A stretch of DNA of 64,000 bases, taken from NCBI RefSeq assembly GCF_900107435.1, contig NZ_FNPZ01000004.1, forward strand, positions 1-64,000, given 5' to 3'. The first letter of the stretch is position 1. Each line of letters begins with the position of its first letter. A program made the translations under genes and the position numbers. Below are positions 5,021 through 63,574 of this stretch, piece after piece. This stretch comes from Herbiconiux ginsengi (GTDB taxonomy: Bacteria; Actinomycetota; Actinomycetes; Actinomycetales; Microbacteriaceae). A model generated the notes under the pieces. The model did not search any database, had not been told where the DNA came from, and saw nothing but the letters and a program-made list of their open reading frames with translations.

Positions 5021-6133
5021 GTGACTAACCAGAACTCTCAATTCTGCGCCCGCTATTACTATGTGGCGCGCACGGTTCACCTCGAGCGGCTCGCGGACTA
5101 CCATCCGGCGTGGTTCTTTTACACTAAAGTGCGAGCGGATTTTGATCCTGAACTTGCGGCTTCGATGCCGTACGTGCAGCAGAGAGGTGCGCTTAGTGTG
5201 GCGTGGTTCGTAGCCCGGAATCGCATCGATGTTCTCGAACTGCCCGAAGCTCTGGCGGTCCGAGTGTGGCCTCAGGCCTTCGCAATTCATATGGTTGTGG
5301 CCATGTCCAACGTCTTCAAGAGGCGGAAAACACGAATTGTCACGTACGCAATTGAGAACTATCCGGCGGACCGAAAGCTGGCCTACTTCACGAAAATGCC
5401 AATCGGGATCGCTCGACTAATCACAAAGGTTTTGGCAGGTTTCCTGCTTCACACAACTGCACGAGTAGTTTTCGGTACGCGGGATGCGGAGGAGAACTAT
5501 GCTCGCCAGCTTCCGGGCGCGATTTCACGTCCCACGCTTGAGAAGGACCTCATCTGGGCTCTACCTTCCCAACTCGAAGGTGTCACCGGTGCAGATAGGC
5601 AAGATCAGGTGGTGTTTCTCGGCACCTTTGAAGAACGAAAGGGCATCTTCAAACTGATCGAGTCCTGGCCGGCGGTCCGGTCGCAGATGCCTGACGCCCG
5701 ATTCCTGATCATGGGCAAGTCGGGAGAAATCGAGCGAGTGAGAGAGTTTGCACGGGCGCATGAGGAAGTGCAACTTATCGAAGACCCGTCCCGTGAGCTG
5801 ATCTTCGGAAACCTGAGAGCGTCTAAGACACTGGTTCTCTTTTCACAGCAATCTGGGATATGGAAGGAGCAAGTCGGGCTGCCGATACTGGAAGGACTAT
5901 CCTGCGGATGCGAAATCGTGAGTTCGGATCAGACGGGGATCGCCGGTTGGCTGGCGTCCAACGGTCACGAAGTAGTCGCCTGGCAAGCCGAGCCGTCTGT
6001 ACTGGCCAACGCCATCGTTCGGTCCCTCCGAAACGAACGGGGTCCACTAACAATCGCAGCGTCCCTACCGCGCGTTGATTCTCGACTTGAAGCGGATCGC
6101 GTCCTGTTTTCACCTGACTCTCTGAGACAGTGA
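5021..6133 (+). CDS. Glycosyltransferase, GT4-like
   Basis: A 370-residue GT-B type glycosyltransferase. The C-terminal half shows the donor-binding part of family 4: FLGTFEERKGIFKLIESW (about residues 198-215) opens it, and LPILEGLSCGCEIVSS carries the glutamate-rich donor loop. No signal peptide or membrane helix, so it probably acts on lipid-linked intermediates at the inner face of the membrane. It is the only rightward gene in the 3.5-13.4 kb block and overlaps the last bases of the convergent Wzy-like gene. GTG start with GGAG upstream. Sugar specificity cannot be read from the sequence. Confidence 0.8.
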   Translation: MTNQNSQFCARYYYVARTVHLERLADYHPAWFFYTKVRADFDPELAASMPYVQQRGALSVAWFVARNRIDVLELPEALAVRVWPQAFAIHMVVAMSNVFKRRKTRIVTYAIENYPADRKLAYFTKMPIGIARLITKVLAGFLLHTTARVVFGTRDAEENYARQLPGAISRPTLEKDLIWALPSQLEGVTGADRQDQVVFLGTFEERKGIFKLIESWPAVRSQMPDARFLIMGKSGEIERVREFARAHEEVQLIEDPSRELIFGNLRASKTLVLFSQQSGIWKEQVGLPILEGLSCGCEIVSSDQTGIAGWLASNGHEVVAWQAEPSVLANAIVRSLRNERGPLTIAASLPRVDSRLEADRVLFSPDSLRQ

Positions 6134-8369: not shown

Positions 8370-9447
8370 GTGCGGCCTTCGATCGTTGAGCAATGAGTGA
8401 AGCCATTTCACCTCGGATTGCACGGACGACATTCGGCCAGGAATAGCGTCCATCGTCTTCGGTTTTGGCCCCGTTTCTGGGTTGGACTTGATTCAGCGCG
8501 CGAGAAAGCGCCGGTTCATCTCTCGGATCGACAAAGGAGGCGCTCGATCCAGCCACCTCTTTCATCACAGGGATGTCGCTGGTTACGACGGGTGTTCCGA
8601 ACCATTTCGCCTCAAGCGGAGGTAGGCCGAAACCTTCGTCGAGTGTCATAAACACAAACGCCGCGGCGTTCCGATAGAGCCACACCAATTCGGGGTTTGA
8701 CACGTGGCCTAGAAAGACGATCCGTCCATCCTCGACCCCTCTACGGATTTCGTCTGAGAGGACGGTGGAGCGACCCTGGTACCCGCCCGCGATCACAAGC
8801 GGGAACGTAGGAGACACACGATCGGACGCTAACGCTGCAGTACATGTGAACTCCAAGTTCTTACGGACGTTCAGCCGACCAACCGTGAGAATGAAATGGC
8901 CAGGCCTTGCGTTGAGGTCCGGGCGGACCCCTTCCAACGTCTGAAGCTCGCGATTCATCGCGAGGCCCACAGGTACGACCTTCTTGGGCCCTCGAATGTT
9001 TGTCCGGATTCGCGCCGCTTCAGAGTGGGACGACGTCAACACGACATCTGCGAATCGCGAAGTGAATGGCATCAGGCTGAAATAGAGCAACTCCTTGCGT
9101 GTGAACCACTCAGGATTAGTCACGAATAGCACGTCGTGCAGGAAGACCGCAGACGTCCCAAAGAGGGGGGTGAAGTTGTGACTGAACGTCACGTCGGCCT
9201 TCACGCGACGTGCAAGAAAGGGTAGCTCGAGAATGGCGCTAATCCCTTGAGGTGCGAGTCGAGTTGCAACGAGTTCGACCGAAGGGTCGAAGGTAGCCCG
9301 CACGACATCAATATCTCTTCCTCGTACTGCGAGCACCAACTCATCCTGTGGAAATTGCTGGCTCCAGGCCAAAACGATCTCGTGCAAGACCTGCCGGTTC
9401 GACACCGGACCATTTACCCACCAGAACGCGTCGAACAGGACTCTCAT
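8359..9447 (-). CDS. Glycosyltransferase family 4
   Basis: A 362-residue GT-B enzyme of the mannosyl/glucosyl-transferase group. It shows the acceptor-side N-terminal fold, then ILTVGRLNVRKNLEF at the start of the donor domain, and DEGFGLPPLEAKWFGTPVV, the EX7E-type donor loop. A soluble cytoplasmic enzyme acting on lipid-linked precursor is expected. It sits in the leftward seven-gene run, 41 bp after the acyltransferase and overlapping the GT2 gene. The ATG at 9447 starts directly at the first beta strand (MRVLFDAFWW). Confidence 0.85.
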   Translation of the reverse strand: MRVLFDAFWWVNGPVSNRQVLHEIVLAWSQQFPQDELVLAVRGRDIDVVRATFDPSVELVATRLAPQGISAILELPFLARRVKADVTFSHNFTPLFGTSAVFLHDVLFVTNPEWFTRKELLYFSLMPFTSRFADVVLTSSHSEAARIRTNIRGPKKVVPVGLAMNRELQTLEGVRPDLNARPGHFILTVGRLNVRKNLEFTCTAALASDRVSPTFPLVIAGGYQGRSTVLSDEIRRGVEDGRIVFLGHVSNPELVWLYRNAAAFVFMTLDEGFGLPPLEAKWFGTPVVTSDIPVMKEVAGSSASFVDPRDEPALSRALNQVQPRNGAKTEDDGRYSWPNVVRAIRGEMASLIAQRSKAAHGN

Positions 9448-9488
9448 TCAGTCTCCACAATGTGGATCATCAAGGCCGATCGTGGCGG

Positions 9489-10178
9489 TCAAAGGATCTT
9501 CTCGCTCGCGACTCGAGTTCGGAGCACGCGAGCAGGAACCCCGGCCACCACCACGTTATCGGGCACATCCTTCGTCACAACACTTCCAGCTGCAACTACC
9601 ACGCCGGTTCCGATGGTCACCCCAGCCGTGATTGTGACCCCGCTTCCGATCCAGCAGTCGTCTCCGATGGTGACGGGAGCGAGGGTGACCCCTTGGGACT
9701 TGATGGTCGACTTCCCGGAGTCGAAATTGTGGTTCTCGCCGAAAATTCGAACTCCCGGACCCATCAGGACATCGTTTCCGATCGTAATCTGACCGGAACA
9801 TCCGATGTACCCACCTGGACCGATGCTCGAGCGGTCACCCATAACGAGGCCTTGACCCACCGGGCCGCCGTAATAGCCGGTGGGACGAATCTGCACGCCG
9901 CGGCCAATCGAAATCTCGTCACCGAACACTATTCCCCCTTGAGAGAGGCAATGGATTTCTGCAAAGTCTTCGATGATCACTCGGCCCGTGTGGGAGAACT
10001 TCTGGGGGTTCTTGATTCTCGCGCCGCGTCCTACGAACAAGCGGCCACTCGAGCGCCCTAGAAATGGTGAAACCAGTAGTCCGCGAAGAAGCATCGGCAC
10101 CGTGCGAAGAGCCATTTGAATCGACGCGACTCTATTCGACGACTCGTCGATTCCCGTGAAGCGGTTCAATGCACCCAT
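9489..10178 (-). CDS. Left-handed beta-helix acyltransferase
   Basis: A 229-residue protein whose C-terminal half is made of hexapeptide repeats of the [LIV]-G-x-x-x-x kind (IGNDVLMGPGVRIFG, IGDDCWIGSGVTI, IGTGVVVAAGSVV). The end, VAGVPARVLR, is the usual closing motif of the NodL/LacA/CysE group. It probably O-acetylates a sugar of the polysaccharide; GENHNFDS holds the histidine expected for catalysis. ATG at 10178 chosen for the GAGGGAG nine bases before it; the frame extends to 10277 without support. Fourth gene of the leftward run, 25 bp from the preceding gene. Confidence 0.85.
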   Translation of the reverse strand: MGALNRFTGIDESSNRVASIQMALRTVPMLLRGLLVSPFLGRSSGRLFVGRGARIKNPQKFSHTGRVIIEDFAEIHCLSQGGIVFGDEISIGRGVQIRPTGYYGGPVGQGLVMGDRSSIGPGGYIGCSGQITIGNDVLMGPGVRIFGENHNFDSGKSTIKSQGVTLAPVTIGDDCWIGSGVTITAGVTIGTGVVVAAGSVVTKDVPDNVVVAGVPARVLRTRVASEKIL

Positions 10179-52822: not shown

Positions 52823-53824
52823 TTGCCCGCACTAGCCATGGCGTCGCTCGTTCTCTCGTCGGTGTTCATCGCGTCCGGCCTCGGCAAGATCGGTCGCGTG
52901 GCGCCGACGCGTGAGATGCTTCGGCGATTCCGCTTGCCCCGGATAGCTTCCGGCAGAGTGGCGGCGACACTGCTCCCGATCGTCGAGCTCGTCGTCGGTG
53001 TCGGGTTGGTGGTGGCCCCGCCGGGCGCATCGAGTCTGATGGCGGCCGCGGCCGTGTGCTTCACCGCGGCATTCGTCGTCGTCACGGGGCGCGCGTGGAG
53101 AAATGGTGACACGTTCGATTGCGACTGCTTCGGCCCATACCACCGAAGCCCTGTCAGTGGTGCTCTGGTGCTGCGGAATGTCGCCTTGCTGGTGCTTGCG
53201 CTCCTTGTTCTGTCGGCCTCCCTCTCTGGGTACGACGGTGTCCTCACGGTCGTCACGGACATCCGTCCGTCGGATGTCGTGTGGAGCGTTGTCGCGGTCG
53301 CTCTCGCTGTCACCGCGGCTCTCTTCGTCTTCTCCGCTCGCTCGGCGACATCGCCGGTGAGCGCCTCCGCGCCATCCTCACGGAAGGGCGGTGTCGCGAC
53401 GATTCCGCCCATCGAGGTCACCACTGCCGTCGGCTCGGTGATGCGGCTCGTCGACCTCGTGGCGATCGAGCCCGTGCTCCTCGTGTTCGTGCGGCCCGGT
53501 TGCACTTCATGCGAACGCGTGATGGAGACCGCGCCGCGCACCCTCACGACGCGGGCGCGCATCGTCTTCGCCGTCGACTCCGCTCCTCAGGTGTTCCGTG
53601 AGAGCCATCCCGAGCTGATGGCGGACGCCGTGTTCGCGGTGCTGAGCGCGAAAGAGAAGCTCGGTGTCACGAAGATGCCGTCAGCGGTGCTCATCGGCCT
53701 GAACGGCGAGTGGATCGCAGGGCCGGTGGCGGGAGTCGCTGAGATCGAGGAACTGCTCGTGAGCGCGACCGGGTACACGGGTGCGACCACGGGAGTCAGA
53801 ACGAACGAGGGGAGTGTCGAATGA
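52823..53824 (+). CDS. MauE-like membrane protein fused to a thioredoxin-like domain (copy 2)
   Basis: 333 residues, paralogue of the protein at 32424. MauE motif with Cys100-Asp-Cys102 (FDCDCFGPY) among four to five helices, then a thioredoxin-like domain with Cys227-Thr-Ser-Cys230 (VRPGCTSCERV). TTG at 52823 is chosen for the GGAG seven bases before it; ATG at 52838 is an alternative. Its stop overlaps the LuxR-3 start (ATGA). The pairing with a two-cysteine propeller protein is the same as in cassette 2, which supports a disulfide role. Confidence 0.8.
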   Translation: MPALAMASLVLSSVFIASGLGKIGRVAPTREMLRRFRLPRIASGRVAATLLPIVELVVGVGLVVAPPGASSLMAAAAVCFTAAFVVVTGRAWRNGDTFDCDCFGPYHRSPVSGALVLRNVALLVLALLVLSASLSGYDGVLTVVTDIRPSDVVWSVVAVALAVTAALFVFSARSATSPVSASAPSSRKGGVATIPPIEVTTAVGSVMRLVDLVAIEPVLLVFVRPGCTSCERVMETAPRTLTTRARIVFAVDSAPQVFRESHPELMADAVFAVLSAKEKLGVTKMPSAVLIGLNGEWIAGPVAGVAEIEELLVSATGYTGATTGVRTNEGSVE

Positions 53825-55368
53825 CGGCAGGGAGTGATCGATCGAACGGGGATCTCGAGCGCCTCTTCCAGGCTGTGGAAGAACGCCAGTGGGACACCGT
53901 GACCGAGGGATTGAGGTCGATGTGGGGCGAGCTCTACGACAACCGTCCCGCCGAGCTCCTCGCGCTCTTCTCGGCCATGCCCGAGGAGGAGTTCGACAAG
54001 GCGCCCCGGCTGCGGATCGCTCAAGAGCATCTCAGGAACAAAGTGGAGGGCAAGCCGTTCTCCCGTGCATACCGAGACATCCTGGGCAGCGATGAGGCGG
54101 CGGATCCGATTGACAGGCTCGCCGCCCTGACCGGTCAACTGGCAGTCGCCCGGGCCAATGGAAGACACTTTGAGAGCGTGAGGATCGCTGAGACGGCCCG
54201 CGAATACCTCCGATCCCTGCCGATCGACGCGATCCCCAAACTGAGCAACGCCTTGCCCGAATTCCACTTCCACTGGGGCGTCACCTTCGAGCAGGCCGGC
54301 CGCACCGAGGAAGCCGTCGACGAGTACATCGAGAGCTTCGATTGGGCCACCTCCATCGGCTCTCGAATGACGATGACCTCGGCCGCGGGCGCGCTCGCCT
54401 ACCTTCGCGCGCTCGCCGGCCAAGACCGCGAGGCCGCTGCGTGGCTCGAGAAGATCCCGGCGCCGCCGAGCGAGGGCTGGTGGTCCGCATTCGCGACCAC
54501 GAAGGCTTTGCTGGCCGACGCCCTGATCAAGGTCGACCGTCTCGACCGGGCCGGAGCTCGAGCGGTGCTCGACACGATCGACATCGCGCAGTCCGTCGAC
54601 GATGTCGGGGAGTACTACTTCGTCTCGGCCCTCGTGACGTCGTCATCGAGCGACGCTCAGCAGCTGCTTGCCGGCATGGACCAACTGCTCGGCGATCTGC
54701 CACGCGGCGAGATGCGGTCACCGGCCACCTCGGAATACCTGTCCGTGGCCCGATACCTTCTCTTGACCGAGCTCGGCCGGACCGCGGGCGCCCTCCGGAT
54801 GATGGAGTCGGAGCAGCTGACGGCCGATGCTCCCCTGATACGGCAGATCGCGGTGGGGCTGCATGTCAGGCGTCTGATCGCGGTGGGCAACCATGCTGCT
54901 GGGCGACGGCTCTCGGATCCGCTCAAGCATGTGGCGAATTCACGACCTCGGGTTCTTGTGCGCGCTCTGCTCGTGTCGGCCGAGACAGACAAGCTCGGGC
55001 GGTACCCGGAGTTGCTCGAGCGCGCTGTCGAGCTGGCTCATTACAATCGGCACTATTCTGCGTTCCGAATGGTTCTCCCGCAGACCAGGCTCGACGCAGC
55101 TGCGCTGTTCCACGAGCTCGGTGATACGGAGGTCTCGATGCGGCTGAAGGCCGCATCCGAGCCGGTCGTCATGCCCGGGGCCGACAGTCTGACCCGCCGC
55201 GAGCGACGGGTGGTCGAACTCGCGCTGAGGGGCCTCTCGAATCCGCAGATAGCCGAGCACCTCGCTGTGAGTGTCAACACGGTGAAGACTCAGATGCGCA
55301 GCGCCTATGGCAAGTTGAGGGTATCGTCGCGCGAGCAGTTGATGCAGCAGCTCCAGTTCGAGGAGTGA
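53821..55368 (+). CDS. Cassette regulator LuxR-3
   Basis: 515 residues, paralogue of LuxR-1 and LuxR-2: helical TPR-like region with ALPEFHFHWG at about 150, and HTH at 457-515 (NPQIAEHLAVSVNTVKTQM). No receiver or P-loop. ATG overlaps the MauE stop by four bases with GGGGAG before it, so it is translated with the operon; this ties the regulator to the redox protein and the propeller protein. Followed 76 bp later by a histidine kinase gene. Confidence 0.82.
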   Translation: MTAGSDRSNGDLERLFQAVEERQWDTVTEGLRSMWGELYDNRPAELLALFSAMPEEEFDKAPRLRIAQEHLRNKVEGKPFSRAYRDILGSDEAADPIDRLAALTGQLAVARANGRHFESVRIAETAREYLRSLPIDAIPKLSNALPEFHFHWGVTFEQAGRTEEAVDEYIESFDWATSIGSRMTMTSAAGALAYLRALAGQDREAAAWLEKIPAPPSEGWWSAFATTKALLADALIKVDRLDRAGARAVLDTIDIAQSVDDVGEYYFVSALVTSSSSDAQQLLAGMDQLLGDLPRGEMRSPATSEYLSVARYLLLTELGRTAGALRMMESEQLTADAPLIRQIAVGLHVRRLIAVGNHAAGRRLSDPLKHVANSRPRVLVRALLVSAETDKLGRYPELLERAVELAHYNRHYSAFRMVLPQTRLDAAALFHELGDTEVSMRLKAASEPVVMPGADSLTRRERRVVELALRGLSNPQIAEHLAVSVNTVKTQMRSAYGKLRVSSREQLMQQLQFEE

Positions 55369-55444: not shown

Positions 55445-56662
55445 TTGGGGGTGCCGATGACGCTGGGGATGCCGCGCGAGGCGAGCGGGCGGAGCGCCGT
55501 GCTCGCCCTTTCGAGCGCCTCGCTGGCGCTGGGCTCGAGCGCGCTCGTGATCGCTGCTGCCCTCGTCGTACTGCGCAACGTCAACTCGCCTTATGACGTG
55601 TGGCTCGCACTGCTCTTCCTGGTGCCGATCGGCGCCTTGATGGTTCTGCGGCACTTCCAGCACTCGCTGTTCGTGGCCATCGCCTACCTGCTCATCGCCG
55701 CGGTGTGCATCGGCTTCTACTCCTCCATCCTCCTCTCCAACGCTCCGGAGGCGATCGTCGAGTCGCCGTTCATCCTCGCCCTGCCGCAGATCGCCGTGGT
55801 CTACACGGTCGCGCCGCGTCTGCTCGGCGTCCAGTCGCTCGTGCTCATCTGCAGCGCCTACGTGGTCGGCCAGCTCGCCGTGACCGCCGCGGCGCTCGAG
55901 GCCGGTCGCTTCCCGACGTTCGACTTCATGACCGCAGCCTCCACCGCCGTCGTGATCGTCATCTGCGCCGCCGATCTGCTGCTGCGCCGTCGCACCCAAG
56001 GCGACCAGCGCGCGGTCGCCCGGGCCCGACGCGACGCCGACGCCATGCACTACCAGCAGGAGCTCGAGTCGCAGGTCGTCGCCCTCTTCCACGACACCGT
56101 GCTGAGCGAGTTGACCGTGCTCTCGCACCAGGTGCCCGGCCCGCTCGGGGAGTCGCAGCGGCAAGCGATCCAGCGCGATCTGGCCTTGATCGCCGAGGGC
56201 TCCTGGTGGCCCGATGAGACAGCAGTGCCGGGAGCGGCCCCCCGCGACGGCGGCTTGCCGGCCGAGCTGGCCGCTGTCGTGGCGGCGAGCCGCTCCGAGG
56301 GCCTCACGGTCGACGTCTCCGGCGACATCGCGTCGCTGCACCGCTTCACGCCCGCCTCCGCCTCCGCCCTCGCCCTGGCGCTGCGGCAGGTGCTCGTGAA
56401 CGTGCGCCAGCATTCGGGCGTCGATCGAGCCGAACTCGTGGTCGACGGCGAGGCGGACGCGGTGGTCGTGCTGATCGCCGACGCCGGCCGAGGCTTCGAC
56501 CCGGCCGCCGTGCCGCGAGACCGCTTCGGGGTCTCGCAGTCGATCGTGGGCCGCATCCGCGACGCCGGCGGGCAGACGCAGCTCTGGACGTCGCCCGGTA
56601 ACGGAACCGCCTTCATGTTCACCCTGCCGGTGGCACCCGAACACGCCTGGGAACCCCGATGA
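55445..56662 (+). CDS. Sensor histidine kinase, NarX/DesK-like
   Basis: 405 residues. Six helices at about 20-185, a short coiled region, an H-box VALFHDTVLSELTVLSH with the likely phosphate-accepting histidine at about 217, and a HATPase domain at about 290-395 (LRQVLVNVRQHSGVDRA is the N-box; DAGRGFDPA the G1 box). No response regulator follows; the next gene is a degenerate kinase-like membrane protein, and the nearest DNA-binding protein is LuxR-3, which has no receiver domain. Start uncertain: TTG at 55445 with AGGGGG, or GTG at 55451, or ATG at 55457. Confidence 0.8.
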   Translation: MGVPMTLGMPREASGRSAVLALSSASLALGSSALVIAAALVVLRNVNSPYDVWLALLFLVPIGALMVLRHFQHSLFVAIAYLLIAAVCIGFYSSILLSNAPEAIVESPFILALPQIAVVYTVAPRLLGVQSLVLICSAYVVGQLAVTAAALEAGRFPTFDFMTAASTAVVIVICAADLLLRRRTQGDQRAVARARRDADAMHYQQELESQVVALFHDTVLSELTVLSHQVPGPLGESQRQAIQRDLALIAEGSWWPDETAVPGAAPRDGGLPAELAAVVAASRSEGLTVDVSGDIASLHRFTPASASALALALRQVLVNVRQHSGVDRAELVVDGEADAVVVLIADAGRGFDPAAVPRDRFGVSQSIVGRIRDAGGQTQLWTSPGNGTAFMFTLPVAPEHAWEPR

Positions 56663-57861
56663 TCGGCTTCTTGGCCTGGCGGGGCATTCCGCAGAGGCTC
56701 GATCCGATCGTCGCCCGCTCGATCTACCCCCTCATCGGCGTGGCCGCCATCGGGTCGATGATCTACGCGATCGTGCGCACCCTCACGGCCGGCGCCGAGG
56801 TGAGAGATCCGTTCTTCGCGGGCGTCGCCATCGCATTCGTCGTCGTCGCCGCCGTGCTGGTGATGCTGGTCACCGATCCGGTGCGCTCCCCGGCGCGTTT
56901 CGGGGGATTGGCCGGCGCGGTGGCTGCAGCGGTACTCGCGAGTGTCGCCTCGAGCGTCAGCACCTGGGGCACCTCGAACGTGATCTGGGACAACTGGGGC
57001 CCGCTGGTGGTGGGCATCGTCATCCTGACGTTCTCCGAGTTCCGGCCGGGCCGGGATCTCGCCCTGGTCACCGCCGTGAGTGCGGTGATCGTCGGCAGCA
57101 CCGCCGCGCTCGAGACCTCCGCCATGCCCGATCTCGCCTCTCCGGTCACCTCGGCGGTGATCGCAGCGACGCCCGTTGTTCTGTTCGGCGTGGGGGCGTC
57201 GGTGTTCTCCTACCGGTTGAGTCTGCTGCTCTCCCGCTCCGCCGAATCCGCACTGCGCGAGCAGAGCGGGCTCAGCCGACGGGTGCGCATCCGTTTGCGG
57301 GAACTGCTCCGCGAATCCGGTCGTGAAGCGCTCTCGGTCGACGTGGTGCCGTTCCTCGAGGGCGTGCTCGAACGCGGCGAGGTGACCGAGGCGGATGCCG
57401 CCCGCGCGCGCCGCATCTCCGCGGTGCTGCGTTCGGTGATCATCACCGACATGGCGCTGCCCTGGCTGCAGCGACTGGCGCGCGCGCATCCGGACGCCCT
57501 GCAGGCCGACGACCCGGGCGACCTCGCGGAGCGCCTCACCATGGAGCAGAAAGTGGCTCTGCGGGCCGTCGTCACGACACTCGTCGCGGTGCGCACGCGA
57601 TCGGCCTCACCCGTGGTGGTGCGATTGCGCGAGGTGGGCCGGCATCGCAGCATCCTGCTGCTCGCGCCCTACGACGGCGGTGAGACCGGCGTGCGTGTGC
57701 GGTTCGGCTCATCCATCGCCGTGATGAACGCCGTGTTCGGGCGCTCCACCGTCAGCGTCGTGGAGGGGGAGCTGCGGATGCTGTTCGCCTTCGAACCGAA
57801 GACCGTTCCGGCACCGGCGTCGGGGCCGGCGTCGGGGCCTCAGTCGTCGATGCCGTCGTAG
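56659..57861 (+). CDS. Membrane protein, degenerate kinase-like partner
   Basis: 400 residues. About six helices (residues 20-190), then a helical linker and a C-terminal domain with a weak HATPase-like pattern but no H-box histidine, N-box or glycine-rich G1 box. The start overlaps the kinase gene by four bases (ATGA), so the two are translated together and probably form a complex. An enzymatically dead half of a two-kinase sensor is my reading. It overlaps the convergent TetR gene by 22 bases. Confidence 0.65.
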   Translation: MIGFLAWRGIPQRLDPIVARSIYPLIGVAAIGSMIYAIVRTLTAGAEVRDPFFAGVAIAFVVVAAVLVMLVTDPVRSPARFGGLAGAVAAAVLASVASSVSTWGTSNVIWDNWGPLVVGIVILTFSEFRPGRDLALVTAVSAVIVGSTAALETSAMPDLASPVTSAVIAATPVVLFGVGASVFSYRLSLLLSRSAESALREQSGLSRRVRIRLRELLRESGREALSVDVVPFLEGVLERGEVTEADAARARRISAVLRSVIITDMALPWLQRLARAHPDALQADDPGDLAERLTMEQKVALRAVVTTLVAVRTRSASPVVVRLREVGRHRSILLLAPYDGGETGVRVRFGSSIAVMNAVFGRSTVSVVEGELRMLFAFEPKTVPAPASGPASGPQSSMPS

Positions 57862-58712
57862 TCGCGGCTGCGCGGCTGCACCACAGGCATCTCGTCGATG
57901 CCGGAGCTGAGCCGGGCGATGGCGGCCTCCGCGTCGTAGGCCGGGTCGGGCACGATGAACGCCATGATGATGGCGTGATATGAGATCGCGGCGAGCGACA
58001 CCTCGGCCGGCCGGCCCTCGTTGTCGACGTTGTAGCGGCCCTCCACCAGGTCGGGGATGGTGGTGCGGGCGATGCCGAGACCCTCGATGATGGCGGCCGC
58101 GGCCACCACCAGGGGGCGGTAGTCGTCGTTGAGGTCGGGGCGGAGGCGGTAGCCCACCGCGGGAACGATGTTGCGGTAGAACACCTCCATCTGATCGAGG
58201 AAGGCGAGCTCGCTGTTGCGAAGAGCCTCGATGATGCGCTCGCGCACGCGCGCATCGGGGTAGGAGAGAGCGGTGGAGGACAGAGCCACGTAGGTGCGCC
58301 ACTGGATGGAGGAGGTGACCGACTCGAAGTTCTGCTCGGCGGCCAGGCCCGTGACATCCACGAGGATGCGGCGGCGGCCCTCGGGGGTGCGCAGCTCGTC
58401 GGCGCGGAATCCGAGGTACTCCCAGGTGGCCACGAGCGACTCCTCGTCGGCCCGGCCGGGGGAGACCTGGTTGGCGACCTCGCTCAGGAGCTCCTCGAAG
58501 AAAGCCTCCTTGGACTCCCAGATACGGTAGACGGAGCTCCGCGGAACACCGGCTTCCTTGATCAGATCGTCCATCAACAGGTGCTCGAAACCGACCGTCA
58601 GACCGTTGGCCTGAACGAGTGCCATGGCGGTGTCGAGGAGCTTCGCGCGCACCTCGTCTTTGGGCACGCGAGTGCGGCCCGCTCCGGCCTTGGTCCAGCT
58701 GTTCTCAGACAT
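57840..58712 (-). CDS. TetR-family regulator
   Basis: 290 residues, long for the family. N-terminal HTH at about 25-70 (MDDLIKEAGVPRSSVYRIWESKEAFF, in parts) and a helical ligand domain of about 200 residues, with an acidic tail. ATG at 58712 with AGAGGGG upstream; a longer frame to 58832 would cover the operator. It diverges from the acyltransferase-ThiF operon, and a 19-bp palindrome lies between them, so it is probably the repressor of both. Confidence 0.87.
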   Translation of the reverse strand: MSENSWTKAGAGRTRVPKDEVRAKLLDTAMALVQANGLTVGFEHLLMDDLIKEAGVPRSSVYRIWESKEAFFEELLSEVANQVSPGRADEESLVATWEYLGFRADELRTPEGRRRILVDVTGLAAEQNFESVTSSIQWRTYVALSSTALSYPDARVRERIIEALRNSELAFLDQMEVFYRNIVPAVGYRLRPDLNDDYRPLVVAAAAIIEGLGIARTTIPDLVEGRYNVDNEGRPAEVSLAAISYHAIIMAFIVPDPAYDAEAAIARLSSGIDEMPVVQPRSRDYDGIDD

Positions 58713-58734
58713 ACGTGCCCCTCTCAGCACCATT

Positions 58735-58753
58735 TTGAGACATAATGTCCCAA
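58735..58753. promoter_or_regulatory. Probable TetR operator
   Basis: TTGAGACATAATGTCCCAA is a 19-bp palindrome with a single mismatched pair, 22 bases before the TetR start and touching the -35 element of the divergent promoter. Position and symmetry fit a TetR operator. Confidence 0.7.
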
Positions 58754-58754
58754 G

Positions 58755-58783
58755 TTGCAAACCCCTTGCCGCACTTCTATGCT
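58755..58783 (+). promoter_or_regulatory. Promoter of the acyltransferase-ThiF operon
   Basis: TTGCAA (58755-58760), 17-base spacer, TATGCT (58778-58783). Expected start about 58790, giving a leader of about 115 bases. The TetR operator abuts the -35 element. Confidence 0.6.
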
Positions 58784-58904
58784 CGGGACAACGGCAGCGT
58801 GCTTCGCGCGGACACGCCGGGCGGCCACCCACCCCCTGAAGACGGAGGATTCGAAGTGCTCCGGACGAAGACTGTCGCTCAGTCGATTTCGCGAAAGTTG
58901 AGCG

Positions 58905-59708
58905 GTGTCACGAATTGATCGCTCCGTAAGCAACGCGGCGGTCATTCCGGTCATCGCGGGTTCCCCCGCGTTCATCGTCGAGCCTGAGGCGCGACTGGCG
59001 ACAGGCATCATCGGCGTCAACGGTGTCGCCCTCCCCGGCTTCGAAGACGTCTATCGGCAGCATTTCGAGTTCCGTCGACGAGTCTACGTGGAGCAGACCG
59101 GGCAACTCGATCCGTCCGATCTCTCCGCCGACGGAACCGACCGCGACGCCGACGACGCCCGCTCCGTGACCTTCGCCGTTCTCGAGAACGCGCCCGAAGG
59201 CGTGCGGATCGTGGGTGTGGCCCGCACCATCATCAAGGGGGCCGACGGCGAGAACCGTCCTCTGCCGGTGGAGGAGTTCTGTCCCGAGCTCTTCGCCGAC
59301 CATCCGCTCGACCTCGGATGCGTCGAGGTCTCGCGCGTCATCGCCCGGCACGAGCGGGTCGCCATGCAGGAACTCATCCAGTGGCACCTGTTCGCCTTGA
59401 TGTCGGCCTACTTCTCGTCGCACGACGTCGGCCGCACCTTCGCCATCATCGAACCCTGGCTCGAGCGGCACCTCGCCGGGGTGCTCGCCATCTCGCGCAT
59501 CGGCGAACCCCGCTACATCGAGCACTACCTCGACTACAACCTGCCGGTCGAGTTCGACCTGGCCGGCTCGGCGGCTCGCATCACCGAGCGCAACGCCACC
59601 ATCCTCGGCACGCTCGAGGCGGCCGACGGCGCACTGGAGTACTTCGGCCGCGTCTCGCGAGCCCAGCGCGCGGCGGCCGTCGTCGACGCCGTGCCCGAAA
59701 GCGGATGA
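58905..59708 (+). CDS. LuxI-/GNAT-fold N-acyltransferase-like protein
   Basis: 267 residues. FEDVYRQHFEFRRRVYVEQTGQLD at about 44-66 (read in parts) and LPVEEFCPELF resemble the autoinducer-synthase and N-acyl-amino-acid-synthase fold, in which an acyl group is passed to an amino acid or its derivative. ELGC-like LDLGCVEVSRVIARHER matches the conserved E-x-S-R-x-x-V region of that fold. GTG start at 58905. Its stop overlaps the ThiF-like start (ATGA). A product that is a small acylated signal or lipid is possible; the substrate is unknown. Confidence 0.72.
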   Translation: MSRIDRSVSNAAVIPVIAGSPAFIVEPEARLATGIIGVNGVALPGFEDVYRQHFEFRRRVYVEQTGQLDPSDLSADGTDRDADDARSVTFAVLENAPEGVRIVGVARTIIKGADGENRPLPVEEFCPELFADHPLDLGCVEVSRVIARHERVAMQELIQWHLFALMSAYFSSHDVGRTFAIIEPWLERHLAGVLAISRIGEPRYIEHYLDYNLPVEFDLAGSAARITERNATILGTLEAADGALEYFGRVSRAQRAAAVVDAVPESG

Positions 59709-60652
59709 AGTCGATCGGCTCGCCCGAGTTCGCGCGCAACTACGGCTTCTGGAGCGAGGCGGAGCAGCAGGCACTCCTCTCCTCGCGGGTCGCGATCGCC
59801 GGAGTCGGAGGAGTCGGCTTCCAGGTGGGCACCAAGCTCGCCCGGATGGGTGTGGCGAGCTTCAGCATCGCCGACCCCGAGGACTTCGAGCCGCAGAACG
59901 CCAACCGCGTGCCCGGGGCGACCACGGCCACCTACGGCCGGTCGAAGGCGGAGGTCTTTCGCGAGCAGGTGCGGGAGATCAATCCGGCGGCCGTGGTGCA
60001 CGTCTACCGCGACGGGGTCACCACGGAGAACGTCGGGGAGTTCCTCGAGGGCGCCGCGCTGGTCTTCGACGAGTCGGAGACCACGCATCCGGAGATCGGC
60101 ACCACCATCGCGCGGCACGCACGGGCGCTCGGCATCCCCGACGTCCTCGTGGTGAACGTCGGCTTCGCCGCCCAGGTCACCTCCTTCCATCCGCAGAGCC
60201 GCTGGACCTTCGAGCGCTTCATGGGTCTGCCGGAGAACGCGTCGCTCGAGGAGATCGCCACCTCGAAGGTCGACTACTCCCGGTTCCTGCCCTACATCCC
60301 GGCCTACAGCGATCTGCGCGGCCTCGTGGCCATGACGACGGATGCGCCCGACGGCTCGAGCGTGTCGCTCCCGTCGATCGCGCCCGGCGTCGACCTCGCC
60401 AGCGCGATCGGCACCACGCAAGCCTTCCTGCACCTGACGGCCGGCGTCTCGAACCGGCGCCGGCGGCCGATCTGGGCGCCGCGGCTGGCCTATCTCGATG
60501 CGTACTCGTTCCGTGGCCGCATCCTGCGGGCAGGGCGCATGACGCACCTGCGGCACGTGGTCGTGGCCGCCGTGCGCGACAGGCTCGGCCGCAATCCGCA
60601 GGGCAGCTACACCCACGCCGACATCGCCCGCCGTGGGGCGGGCGACGCCTGA
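59705..60652 (+). CDS. ThiF/E1-like adenylyltransferase
   Basis: 315 residues with the Rossmann nucleotide motif GVGGVG (33-38) and DPEDFEPQNANR, the Asp and Asn/Arg region of E1/ThiF/MoeB enzymes that adenylate a C-terminal carboxylate. The protein has no cysteine at all, so neither the catalytic thiol nor the CxxC zinc site of classic E1 enzymes is present; adenylation without thioester transfer is expected. Translationally coupled to the acyltransferase, which suggests that the two make one product, for example an acyl-amino acid activated or ligated by ThiF. No ThiS-like protein is nearby. Confidence 0.82.
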   Translation: MKSIGSPEFARNYGFWSEAEQQALLSSRVAIAGVGGVGFQVGTKLARMGVASFSIADPEDFEPQNANRVPGATTATYGRSKAEVFREQVREINPAAVVHVYRDGVTTENVGEFLEGAALVFDESETTHPEIGTTIARHARALGIPDVLVVNVGFAAQVTSFHPQSRWTFERFMGLPENASLEEIATSKVDYSRFLPYIPAYSDLRGLVAMTTDAPDGSSVSLPSIAPGVDLASAIGTTQAFLHLTAGVSNRRRRPIWAPRLAYLDAYSFRGRILRAGRMTHLRHVVVAAVRDRLGRNPQGSYTHADIARRGAGDA

Positions 60653-60668: not shown

Positions 60669-60911
60669 TCAGCCCGCGAGACGGAGGAGCGGGCCGGTCG
60701 CGTCGGCCGGGGTGTAGCGCTCGATCGCGTCTTCGGGGGCGTCGAACGGCCCCGACCACGCGAATCGATCATGTCGATGGGTGAGTTTCATGTACCAGCC
60801 GTCTTTCAAGAGGTAGACGGTGGCGAGCGGCGCGCTGGTCTTCGGATCTTGACCCGCGAGGCCGAGAGTGGCGATGGTGCCTGTCTTTCGAAGGATCACA
60901 ATATCGTTCAC
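60669..60911 (-). CDS. Hypothetical 80-residue protein
   Basis: Small soluble protein, beta-rich first half (IVILRKTGTIATLGLAG) and YLLKDGWYMKLTHRHDRFAW, which has two histidines and three aromatics in a row. GTG start at 60911. It converges with the ThiF gene, 16 bp away, and no family is recognised. Confidence 0.6.
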   Translation of the reverse strand: MNDIVILRKTGTIATLGLAGQDPKTSAPLATVYLLKDGWYMKLTHRHDRFAWSGPFDAPEDAIERYTPADATGPLLRLAG

Positions 60912-61591: not shown

Positions 61592-62436
61592 GCGGCCCGG
61601 GGCAGGCTGCACCGGTGCAGCGTCGCTGCGCCCAGGATGAAGAGGTCGCGACGGTGCTCGACGCCGTCGGGGTTCGCCGGGTCGAGCAGCCACTCCAGCG
61701 TCTCGATGTCCTCCTCGGAGAGGTATCTCCGCGTGGCGCCGGTGAGCAGCCGCAGGAGGGTGTTGCGGATGTGCGCCCGCGCATCGTCGGCGACCGGGGC
61801 CGGCACGTCCCAGAGAAAGCTCATCGTCTCCTCCACGACGAGTCCGGCGCGTTCGAGCACCACGTTCCAGCCGTAGCGGGACGTGACCGGATGGTCGAGC
61901 TCGGCGCGCATCCCGGCGTATCGGATGGCCTGTGCCATCACCAGCCGATGCATCAGTCCCGGCGTGCCCCGGCCGAGTTCGAACGGGAGGTAGTGCGTGA
62001 CCAGTCCGCCCTCGCCCACGATCAGCCGGCCGCCGGGCGCGAGCCGGGCGGCGAGCCGGCGCAGGCCGTCGACCTGATCGGGCAGATGCCGCACCATCTG
62101 CCGGGAGACGACGAGATCGAACGGGCCGGGCTGGCTCTCCGGGTCGAGGACATCGCCGTGCTCGATCAGCACCCGGTCGCCGAGTGCGAGGGTGGTCACC
62201 AGGGAGCGCGCGGCGTCGAGCGATTCCTCGTCGTGGTCGGCCCCCACGATGTGTGCCATGGGGGCGATATCGGCCAGGTAGGGCAGGAAGCCCCCGGGCC
62301 CGCAGCCGATGTCGAGGATGGTGCTGTGCGGTTGCGGGGCGATCCACTCCGCCATGGCCGCGTACTGCCCGGCCGACAGGTGGTCGGTCGCCTGGATCTG
62401 GGAAACCCAGCCGCTGTCGTGTCGCACGATGACCAC
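61579..62436 (-). CDS. SAM-dependent methyltransferase, class I
   Basis: 285 residues. Motif I ILDIGCGPGGFLPYL (about 41-55), motif II/III with HGDVLDPESQPGPFDLV and ARLAPGGRLIVGEGG; a helical C-terminal part. GTG at 62436 with AGGAG five bases before. Small-molecule methylation is likely, target unknown. It diverges from the radical SAM gene; the 79 bp between them hold the LexA-like box. Confidence 0.83.
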   Translation of the reverse strand: MVIVRHDSGWVSQIQATDHLSAGQYAAMAEWIAPQPHSTILDIGCGPGGFLPYLADIAPMAHIVGADHDEESLDAARSLVTTLALGDRVLIEHGDVLDPESQPGPFDLVVSRQMVRHLPDQVDGLRRLAARLAPGGRLIVGEGGLVTHYLPFELGRGTPGLMHRLVMAQAIRYAGMRAELDHPVTSRYGWNVVLERAGLVVEETMSFLWDVPAPVADDARAHIRNTLLRLLTGATRRYLSEEDIETLEWLLDPANPDGVEHRRDLFILGAATLHRCSLPRAAYAS

Positions 62437-62491
62437 CGCCTCTCCTGACGCGTGTGGTTACATTGTGGCCCCATCCGCACTTGACCGATAT

Positions 62492-62507
62492 TCGAATGTA
62501 TGTTCGA
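62492..62507. promoter_or_regulatory. LexA (SOS) box before the Rv2578c-like gene
   Basis: TCGAATGTATGTTCGA matches the actinobacterial SOS box TCGAAC-N4-GTTCGA at 11 of 12 fixed positions. It ends eight bases before the ATG at 62516 and overlaps the likely -10 region (TTGACC at 62481 as -35). Confidence 0.7.
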
Positions 62508-62515
62508 ATCTCTTC

Positions 62516-63574
62516 ATGCGCTGGAACGGACAGACCCTCGACACCGAAGCGCCCTCGACGTTGCCCGGGCTCGCGCGGCTGAACAATCTCGTGCGGTCGG
62601 TGCAGACGCCGGAGTTCGCGGGCATCACCTTTCACGAGGTGCTCGCGAAGAGCGCACTCAACCACGTGTCCGGAGCCAGCAAGGTGATGCCTTTCGCCTG
62701 GACGATCAATCCCTATCGCGGCTGCTCGCACGCCTGCGTCTACTGCTTCGCCCGGCCCACCCACGGCTATCTCGAACTCGACGCCGGGAAGGACTTCGAT
62801 CAGCAGATCGTGGTGAAGGTGAACGTCGGCGAGGTGCTCACCCGCGAGGTCACACGAAAGTCGTGGCAGCACCCGTCGGTCGCGCTCGGCACCAACACCG
62901 ATCCCTACCAGCGGGCCGAGGGGCGGTATGCGCTGATGCCGTCGATCATCGAGGCGCTCGCCGGGTCGGGCACACCGTTCTCCATCCTCACCAAGGGCTC
63001 TCTGCTGCGGCGCGATCTGGGGTTGATCGCGTCGGCCGCCGAGGTCGTGCCGGTGAGCATCGCGATGTCGATCGCGGTCTACGACGACGAGTTGCAGCAG
63101 TCGATCGAGCCCGGCACCCCGAGCACCAAGGCGAGGCTGGCCACGGTCACGGCGGTGCGCGAGAAGGGTCTCGAGTGCCAGGTGTTCCTGATGCCGATCC
63201 TGCCGCTGCTCACCGACTCGGTGGAGCATCTCGACCGGGCGCTCGCCCGGGTGGCAGAAGCCGGGGCGTCGAGCATCGTCTATTCGGCGCTCCATCTCAA
63301 GCCGGGTGTGAAGGAGTGGTTCATGGCCTGGCTCAGCCGCGAGCATCCGGAGCTCGTGTCGGCCTATGCGCGCATCTACGCGAAGGGAACCTATGCGCCG
63401 AAGGAATACCGAGAGTGGCTCTCCGAACGGATGCGGCCGCTGGTGCGCAAGCACGGGCTCAACCGCAGCCGGCCGTCGGGTGTCACCGGGGGAGTGGCCC
63501 CGCCGGGGCGGCTCGACAAGCCGGTGGGCCCGAGTTTCGGGCCGGTGGGCGACAGCCAGCCGATGCTGTTCTGA
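62516..63574 (+). CDS. Rv2578c-family radical SAM protein
   Basis: 352 residues. The iron-sulfur motif is Cys70-x3-Cys74-x2-Cys77 (GCSHACVYCFARPTH); the barrel continues to about residue 290. ATG at 62516 is the start because the conserved part begins at once (MRWNGQ) and no protein-like sequence precedes it. The family is found across actinobacteria, its reaction is unknown. The mycobacterial homologue is listed among LexA-controlled genes (established knowledge), and the SOS box here agrees. Confidence 0.88.
   Translation: MRWNGQTLDTEAPSTLPGLARLNNLVRSVQTPEFAGITFHEVLAKSALNHVSGASKVMPFAWTINPYRGCSHACVYCFARPTHGYLELDAGKDFDQQIVVKVNVGEVLTREVTRKSWQHPSVALGTNTDPYQRAEGRYALMPSIIEALAGSGTPFSILTKGSLLRRDLGLIASAAEVVPVSIAMSIAVYDDELQQSIEPGTPSTKARLATVTAVREKGLECQVFLMPILPLLTDSVEHLDRALARVAEAGASSIVYSALHLKPGVKEWFMAWLSREHPELVSAYARIYAKGTYAPKEYREWLSERMRPLVRKHGLNRSRPSGVTGGVAPPGRLDKPVGPSFGPVGDSQPMLF

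Follow-up and report, generated by a model that had tools for sequence, protein, structure and literature searches.

A conserved pair of a LuxI/FeeM-type acyltransferase and a stand-alone ThiF-type enzyme, a putative synthase of cyclic N-acyl-amino-acid signals in Herbiconiux and other bacteria

The DNA analysed here comprises positions 1-64,000 of contig NZ_FNPZ01000004.1 from Herbiconiux ginsengi (assembly GCF_900107435.1); this whole stretch of 64,000 nt is referred to as the window. It contains an operon of two genes, one for an acyltransferase of the LuxI/FeeM type (AT) and one for a ThiF/E1-like adenylating enzyme, next to a divergent gene for a TetR-family regulator (Table 1). On balance we favour the view that the two enzymes form the synthase of a cyclic N-acyl-amino-acid signal under repression by TetR in Herbiconiux, with product, ligand and role that we infer as follows. 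Judging from its fold, its residues and its relatives, AT would acylate the amino group of an amino acid, the donor being acyl-CoA or an acylated acyl carrier protein (acyl-ACP). As in published relatives, ThiF would then use ATP to adenylate the carboxylate, after which attack by an internal nucleophile (the amide oxygen is the likeliest candidate) would expel AMP and close the ring to a saturated 2-alkyl-oxazol-5-one (azlactone); with homoserine or a diamino acid as the substrate, the same step would lead to a lactone or a lactam. Unlike in the tyz, trz and oxz pathways, no flavin desaturase would act thereafter. The neighbouring genes suggest that the product or its ring-opened form may serve as the signal. 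In Herbiconiux, TetR bound to a palindrome by the -35 box would keep the operon repressed; release would come from a ligand, for which the product is a plausible candidate. In genomes of the Patescibacteria type, the histidine kinase encoded beside the pair is the probable receptor.

The pairing of the two genes is the most constant feature of the system. In a survey of 99 near genomes, own genome included, 77 have some ThiF-family match and 18 have a strong orthologue (E<=2e-100, the next match being at 1e-14); the latter are found in 15 of 16 genomes of the own genus (again counting the own genome), in 3 of 44 genomes from the rest of the family and in 0 of 39 genomes of the wider order. The original prediction had called for a search across genomes for a conserved AT/ThiF pair and had named a lack of such conservation as a refutation; the search finds the two genes as neighbours in 17/17 related loci and in all 39 loci of a scan of GTDB contigs (38 by profile and one, L120, by BLAST cluster and FeeM match). 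The ATGA shared by the two open reading frames (ORFs), an overlap of four bases that had been predicted and that their coordinates confirm, recurs as an exact 4-bp overlap in 11 of the 17 related loci. None of the other window genes tested is found in four of these loci (L037, L038, L046 and L047), and AT-ThiF is therefore kept as a unit in itself.

Across the phylum the spread is narrow. When the AT profile was run over 396 genomes drawn across Actinomycetota, with up to 6 candidates per genome scored, the own genome was the sole match. The 39 loci of the GTDB scan comprise 30 of the Microbacteriaceae type (Herbiconiux, Agreia, Leucobacter, Cryobacterium, Rathayibacter, unclassified members and one record labelled Corynebacterium-like), five from Saccharibacteria/Saccharimonadia, among them the complete genome CP011211 (G510), one from Acetobacterium, one from Uhrbacteria and two from further metagenome-assembled genomes (L118 and L119), of which L119, unclassified and 0.7 Mb in size, was placed with the Patescibacteria type by its gene content. 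The cassette is rare among Patescibacteria: in the phylum to which G510 belongs, only 2 of 192 genomes have a match at E<=1e-30, and one of them is the query's own. In the ThiF tree, which has several long branches and was midpoint-rooted for drawing only, one Saccharibacteria row stands beside Acetobacterium with support 100/96, a grouping that speaks for transfer between phyla. Some of these loci are unusual in themselves. That of Acetobacterium dehalogenans (L114, 4313-9905) carries two AT-ThiF pairs and a further AT ORF; one of its AT frames is split over two ORFs (5197-5565 and 5474-5977), and its second ThiF (8952-9905) has an altered glycine motif along with Asn at the column of D122. 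The record titled Corynebacterium-like bacterium B27 (L084) has a Herbiconiux-type locus with a ThiF identity of 90-92%, and its label is probably wrong.

The AT of the window by itself (ACYLTRANSFERASE) gave no Pfam match even at E<=10, PF00765 included, and placing it takes related sequences, a profile or a structural model; its only NCBIfam match, to exosortase-associated acyltransferases, is sub-threshold (37.6 of 111.95 bits). The AlphaFold2 model (predicted local distance difference test score, pLDDT, 80.5) is most similar in structure to LasI (Z 17.4, 2.6 A over 180 residues), followed by RpaI (17.1), TofI (16.8), BjaI (16.5), FeeM (Z 16.1, 3.1 A over 179 residues) and MesI (16.0), with the best ordinary GNAT at 14.7. 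A profile of 18 diverse family members retrieved 7 PDB sequences at E<=1, all of them synthases of acyl-homoserine lactones (AHL), the best being BjaI at 9.1e-11. Thus the LuxI/GNAT fold that had been predicted, whose failure had been named beforehand as a refutation, held up, and the model gives AT a predicted LuxI/FeeM fold. Residues R57, Y61, D81, D84, R107, E141, S143 and R144, among others, are invariant in 18/18 ATs and align in the profile alignments with counterparts in BjaI, TofI and LasI, which we take to be catalytic; with the LuxI list read as R, F/Y, W, D, D, R, E, R, all but the Trp are conserved in the 18 ATs.

This likeness to LuxI enzymes such as BjaI and LasI, in fold and in most catalytic residues, raises the alternative that AT is a true AHL-type synthase using acyl-CoA and S-adenosylmethionine, with ThiF acting on another target or modifying the lactone. 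It is in keeping with this alternative that the PDB sequences retrieved are AHL synthases without exception, that seven of the invariant residues (S143 apart) belong to the LuxI set and that PF00765 is above cut-off in 6 of 13 AT relatives scanned. We nevertheless consider it unlikely. The window AT differs from AHL synthases in lacking a PF00765 match, the LuxI Trp is mostly absent from the AT family, and the FeeM family of N-acyl amino acid synthases (PF21926) is above cut-off in 3 of the same 13 relatives; in the most divergent ATs (L120, L127 and L132) the FeeM score exceeds that of PF00765. Among the neighbours scanned with Pfam, no autoinducer-binding LuxR domain was seen. In addition, to our knowledge AHL synthases work without a ThiF partner and need no ATP-using cyclase, and the constant company of ThiF in 39/39 scan loci is no feature of theirs that we know of.

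The second protein matches PF00899 at 1.2e-28 and contains no cysteine, in agreement with its description as a cysteine-free ThiF/E1-like enzyme in the original prediction. Among NCBIfam models it comes closest to PRK08223 (156 of 266 bits) and PRK14851 (110 of 1170), but both matches stay below cut-off, as do those to the equivalogs for sulfur-carrier activation (TIGR02356 ThiF, 69.1 bits against a cut-off of 275.25; NF004281 MoeB, 45.8 against 266). The model is poor (pLDDT 63.3); its Foldseek list agrees with the sequence search, but we give it no weight. In an alignment of 22 rows, two of which are mycobacterial TrzS-type domains, R11, N12, G33, G38, D57, N65, N67, R68 and K81 are invariant throughout, and presumably these residues, R11, R68, K81, D57, G33 and G38 among them, serve in ATP binding, so that the ATP site of the window ThiF appears intact. 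Its nearest PDB sequences are AclA (9egb; 1.1e-28) and TcdA (4d7a; 1.2e-26), the closest solved relatives of the family by sequence. TcdA carries out an ATP-driven cyclisation of a carboxylate; unlike the proposed system, it acts on tRNA. A function for AclA was not found in the literature search. The Uhrbacteria locus (L120, 2395-3744) encodes a longer ThiF of 449 aa with a hydrophobic C-terminal extension unseen in the other rows.

Since fold and sequence are common to ThiF, MoeB and E1 enzymes, ThiF might instead activate a ubiquitin-like or sulfur-carrier protein, the pair then modifying a protein. We regard this as very improbable. The absence of Cys from the window ThiF means that it has neither a Cys zinc site nor a catalytic Cys, and no ThiS-like ORF was noticed beside it, the nearest small ORF (60669-60911) having no Pfam match. 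Both observations disfavour a ubiquitin-like or sulfur-carrier role. An anti-phage E1-E2 system was rejected as well: among the PADLOC matches listed (25 of 27 families) only ThiF residues of about 11-145 are covered, which is the shared nucleotide-binding part, and AT has no match.

The closest chemical precedents are the acyl-oxazolone pathways. According to the passages of PMC10404671 and PMC12856293 available to us, tyzACB, trzAS and oxzAB direct the formation of N-acyl oxazolones, in which an amino acid is acylated and ThiF then adenylates and cyclises the product. TyzA, TyzC and TyzB make acyl-tyrazolone (PMC10404671, in part) and TrzA and TrzS make acyl-tryptazolones (PMC12856293, in part); in both cases the ThiF component is described as responsible for ATP-dependent cyclisation and a flavin oxidase for desaturation. 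In PMC12856293, where Rhodococcus jostii RHA1 stripped of its native trzAS was used, oxazolones proved labile to acid and alcohol. The order that had been predicted for the window, with an acyl-amino compound made first and its carboxylate then adenylated and cyclised, is the one published for these related pathways. Compared by its description in the same part of PMC10404671, tyzACB resembles the window in that a LuxI/FeeM-fold N-acyltransferase is encoded together with a stand-alone ThiF-type cyclase whose size is similar (TyzB, 318 aa); it differs in having the flavin oxidase TyzC, whereas no desaturase was found near the pair in the window or its relatives. In trzAS, as presented in the portion of PMC12856293 consulted, the acyltransferase likewise adjoins a ThiF domain, and genes of cyclic di-GMP (c-di-GMP) signalling lie beside trzAS as they do in the Leucobacter, Agreia and Cryobacterium loci here. 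However, TrzS is described there as a fusion of ThiF and desaturase, in contrast to the stand-alone window ThiF, which has Glu for Asp at an active-site column. The clusters for N-acyl dehydrotyrosines (stieleriacines, thalassotalic and kyonggic acids) also combine an N-acyl amino acid synthase gene with a ThiF gene, which in the genomes described in the available part of PMC12479983 is accompanied by a nitroreductase gene, unlike in the window. Our literature searches returned no description of an AT-ThiF pair of the present kind, and the passages of PMC9765116 and PMC8105983 that were accessible do not mention one.

PF00881 is a weak probe for the desaturase because it is not among the families found for the TrzS-type fusion, and we therefore used the flavin half of PRK14851 on 24 pair-bearing genomes (the own genome, 22 reached through scan loci, and G635), with the mycobacterial genome G191 as the only control. 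This probe, which may miss some stand-alone desaturases, found nothing near the pair in any of the 24 genomes and nothing anywhere in 22 of them; in G191 it gave several strong matches. The two exceptions are a match of 41 bits in G490, on a contig other than that of the pair, and, in G504, a fragment of 19.8 bits at a distance of about 38 kb. The lack of a flavin desaturase near the pair makes the system a variant and not a member of the tyz/trz/oxz type, and as read from its genes AT-ThiF is a putative desaturase-less variant of this acyl-oxazolone pathway type. That the two genes constitute a complete pathway, as the original prediction proposed, is thus plausible, but such a pathway would differ from its characterised relatives, which add a flavin desaturase. 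A full pathway of the tyz/trz type, with the desaturase encoded elsewhere in the genome, appears quite unlikely to us. The own genome does contain three PF00881 nitroreductase genes (four matched stretches), all on other contigs, and the matches in G490 and G504 as well as the limited reach of the probe leave such an arrangement some room. Against it stand the 22 genomes without a flavin-half match and the fact that 6 of 22 pair-bearing genomes have no PF00881 match at all, the complete CP011211 being one of them.

In Herbiconiux and its near relatives, the regulatory region is conserved together with the pair. The regulator is a long TetR protein encoded divergently, and the 19-bp palindrome ends one base before the -35 box, both as foreseen. 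The range first assigned to the system, 58712-60652, encloses the pair; position 58712, however, is the first codon of TetR, the body of whose gene lies at lower coordinates, outside that range. Searching with the pattern TTGRGACATNATGTCYCAA showed the operator palindrome to be the single site within 3 mismatches in the 4.85-Mb own genome (a reversed control pattern gave 0), and a TetR regulon that reaches a distant desaturase is therefore not supported. Of 16 intergenic regions from Herbiconiux and its near relatives, the window included, 15 contain the core TTGRGAC-N5-GTCYCAA; L046 is the exception and is also the only one in which the -35 and -10 boxes are not both kept. A short leader ORF is present in 14 of the 16 regions (not in L043 and L046), its start lying at -46, -49 or -64 from the AT start and in the same frame in each case, whereas a script located a ribosome-binding site in front of AT in no more than 4 of the 16; the leader ORF may provide translational coupling to AT. 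TetR is divergent in 15 of 17 related loci (L032 ends at a contig edge and L047 has no TetR), and BLAST finds it, encoded on the strand opposite to the pair, in 26 of the 39 scan loci, all 26 among the 30 of the Microbacteriaceae type. As for the resemblance to gamma-butyrolactone systems that the original prediction had raised, among the Pfam TetR families only TetR_N matched, with no C-terminal family, and scores against the NCBIfam TetR models are far below their cut-offs. In a mycobacterial-type genome (L125, 3164-6033), a TetR gene overlaps the start of an ORF for a TrzS-type ThiF-flavin fusion, which hints at TetR control of such pathways elsewhere.

Table 1. Features of the AT-ThiF locus in the window
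Feature	Position	Strand	Description
Membrane-protein-like ORF	56659..57861	+	400 aa; converges on TetR
TetR-family regulator, divergent from the AT-ThiF pair	57840..58712	-	290 aa; PF00440 4.5e-9
Probable TetR operator, 19-bp palindrome TTGAGACATAATGTCCCAA	58735..58753		arms match at 8/9 pairs; would bind TetR
Predicted promoter of the pair	58755..58783	+	-35 TTGCAA 58755-58760, -10 TATGCT 58778-58783, 17-nt spacer
Leader ORF	58856..58918	+	20 codons, GTG start behind GGAGGA; TGA inside the AT start, other frame
AT (LuxI/FeeM-type acyltransferase)	58905..59708	+	267 aa, GTG start
ThiF/E1-like adenylating enzyme, cysteine-free, probable cyclase	59705..60652	+	315 aa, ATG start

Signalling genes are the recurrent company of the pair in other lineages. 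Like the leader ORF and the occurrence in Patescibacteria, the histidine-kinase and c-di-GMP neighbours had not been part of the original prediction. In the seven scan loci of the Patescibacteria type (L106, L110, L111, L113, L119, L120 and L121), a histidine-kinase BLAST cluster directly follows ThiF without exception; Pfam, run on three of them, found kinase domains in L106 and L121 and the N-terminus of a seven-transmembrane (7TM) kinase in L120, where the contig stops within the gene. Upstream, five of the seven loci also have CheY-like regulators that belong to a single cluster, adjoining AT in four and about 4 kb away in L111; that of L106 was confirmed by Pfam. Downstream of a distant Patescibacteria pair in the order ThiF-AT (L132) come a gene for a kinase whose N-terminus is of the 7TM kind and two regulator-like genes, one of them Pfam-confirmed, which brings the count of loci with a histidine kinase beside the pair to 8/8. 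These eight genomes, of about 0.7-1.1 Mb, contain just 2-11 HisKA matches each, so chance would hardly put a kinase beside the pair in all eight, although the loci have common ancestry. In L110, L119 and L121, one further gene cluster stands upstream of the cassette and is FolD-like by our reading of L121. A different set of signalling proteins is found in Leucobacter, Agreia and Cryobacterium: a GGDEF domain lies within about 4 kb of the pair in 6/6 genomes tested, which have 3-9 GGDEF per genome, and the cluster of the GGDEF-EAL protein of L098 occurs in at least 13 of the 17 loci from these three genera. In G145, a deep actinobacterial genome, GGDEF-HD-GYP proteins flank a distant pair on both sides.

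This context also bears on a further alternative, in which ThiF only activates and the acyl-amino-acyl adenylate is passed to an amine, a sugar or a peptide, the outcome being an antibiotic-like compound or a membrane lipid in place of a cyclic signal. E1-like enzymes such as MccB modify peptides, and MccB is among both the structural and the sequence matches of ThiF; N-acyl amino acids, moreover, can be antibiotics or membrane constituents, as noted in the parts of PMC10404671 and PMC12856293 consulted. Yet by BLAST clusters and Pfam the lineages have no additional enzyme, carrier or peptide in common next to the pair, and the recurring neighbour clusters that could be identified are mostly regulators and signal transducers. 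We judge this alternative as improbable as a desaturase encoded elsewhere.

In the window, the genes nearest to the pair that could be related to signalling are a kinase-like gene (55445-56662) and one for a protein with a LuxR-type helix-turn-helix (53821-55368), both beyond TetR from the pair. The kinase-like gene adjoins the membrane-protein-like ORF, which gave no Pfam match at E<=0.01 and shares 22 bases with the TetR gene, tail to tail (57840-57861). Homologues of both lie beside TetR in 9 of 17 related loci; the 400-aa ORF may at most be a candidate neighbour and is not assigned to the AT-ThiF system. On the other side of the pair, a Cys-rich ORF (62309-63574, plus strand), radical-SAM-like in appearance by eye, has counterparts close to the pair in 13 of the 17 related loci and also in two from Agreia.

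Several observations weigh against a cyclic N-acyl-amino-acid signal made by the pair. The first is chemical, as saturated azlactones are reactive and hydrolyse, which would make them odd signals. Regarding AT, the AHL synthase EsaI scores just Z 12.9 against the model, under several ordinary GNATs, and the LuxI Trp is not conserved, only L132 having one in that stretch. The window ThiF is far from TrzS, with 26-27% identity to the two TrzS-type domains and a very long branch in the tree. One column has Asp in those two domains and in AclA and Glu in the 20 other rows, and this change at the active site means that the chemistry may differ from that of TrzS; the column probably corresponds to Asp217, mutated in the work reported in PMC12856293 (seen in part). 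At the D122 column, L119 and the second Acetobacterium ThiF have Asn. Among four more distant ThiF matches in other Actinomycetota (L054-L057), a tandem AT-ThiF occurs in L127 only, the others having an AT-like ORF arranged otherwise (L126, L128/L056) or none (L057). As for the regulatory context, the operator core is present in none of the 17 Leucobacter/Agreia/Cryobacterium regions even at 4 mismatches, and the neighbour counts are non-independent through shared ancestry. No kinase, c-di-GMP gene or other signalling gene was recognised within the Acetobacterium locus L114; L118 has no kinase next to the pair, and a PAS-GAF-HD protein upstream is its only such gene. In the Herbiconiux ginsengi genome, both GGDEF matches are on contigs other than that of the pair. 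Finally, no match to PF00550 or PF00501 (carrier protein and acyl-CoA ligase) was found in 7 of 8 Patescibacteria-type genomes with the pair; both families matched in the eighth, G509, and in the own genome. Genome incompleteness may explain some of these absences, although not that of CP011211, which is complete. If AT works as proposed, its acyl groups would thus have to come from elsewhere in these organisms.

Taking the lineages together, AT-ThiF could represent a new class of small-molecule signal synthase in which a LuxI-type AT works with a ThiF cyclase and the receptor varies with the host. Herbiconiux would use TetR, Leucobacter and its relatives c-di-GMP proteins, and Saccharibacteria and their relatives a histidine kinase of the membrane together with response regulators. 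Given the missing carrier and ligase families, the Patescibacteria would build the signal from acyl groups of their host, and it might report attachment to the host or use the host's own language, the host here being an actinobacterial lineage that has these genes as well. We put this wider proposal forward tentatively and hold it to be possible rather than probable. A Leucobacter species is reportedly the host of a Saccharibacteria strain, for which our literature search found no paper. Acyl-oxazolone lipids are a recent discovery, and their role is called unresolved in the part of PMC12856293 available to us. The desaturase-less version described here, standing beside sensor kinases and c-di-GMP enzymes in several phyla, allows a role in signalling to be tested directly, and in soil bacteria that are harmless. 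Should the Saccharibacteria cassette prove functional, it would mean chemical signalling in ultra-small bacteria by a means common to Actinomycetota, the phylum of the known Saccharibacteria hosts.

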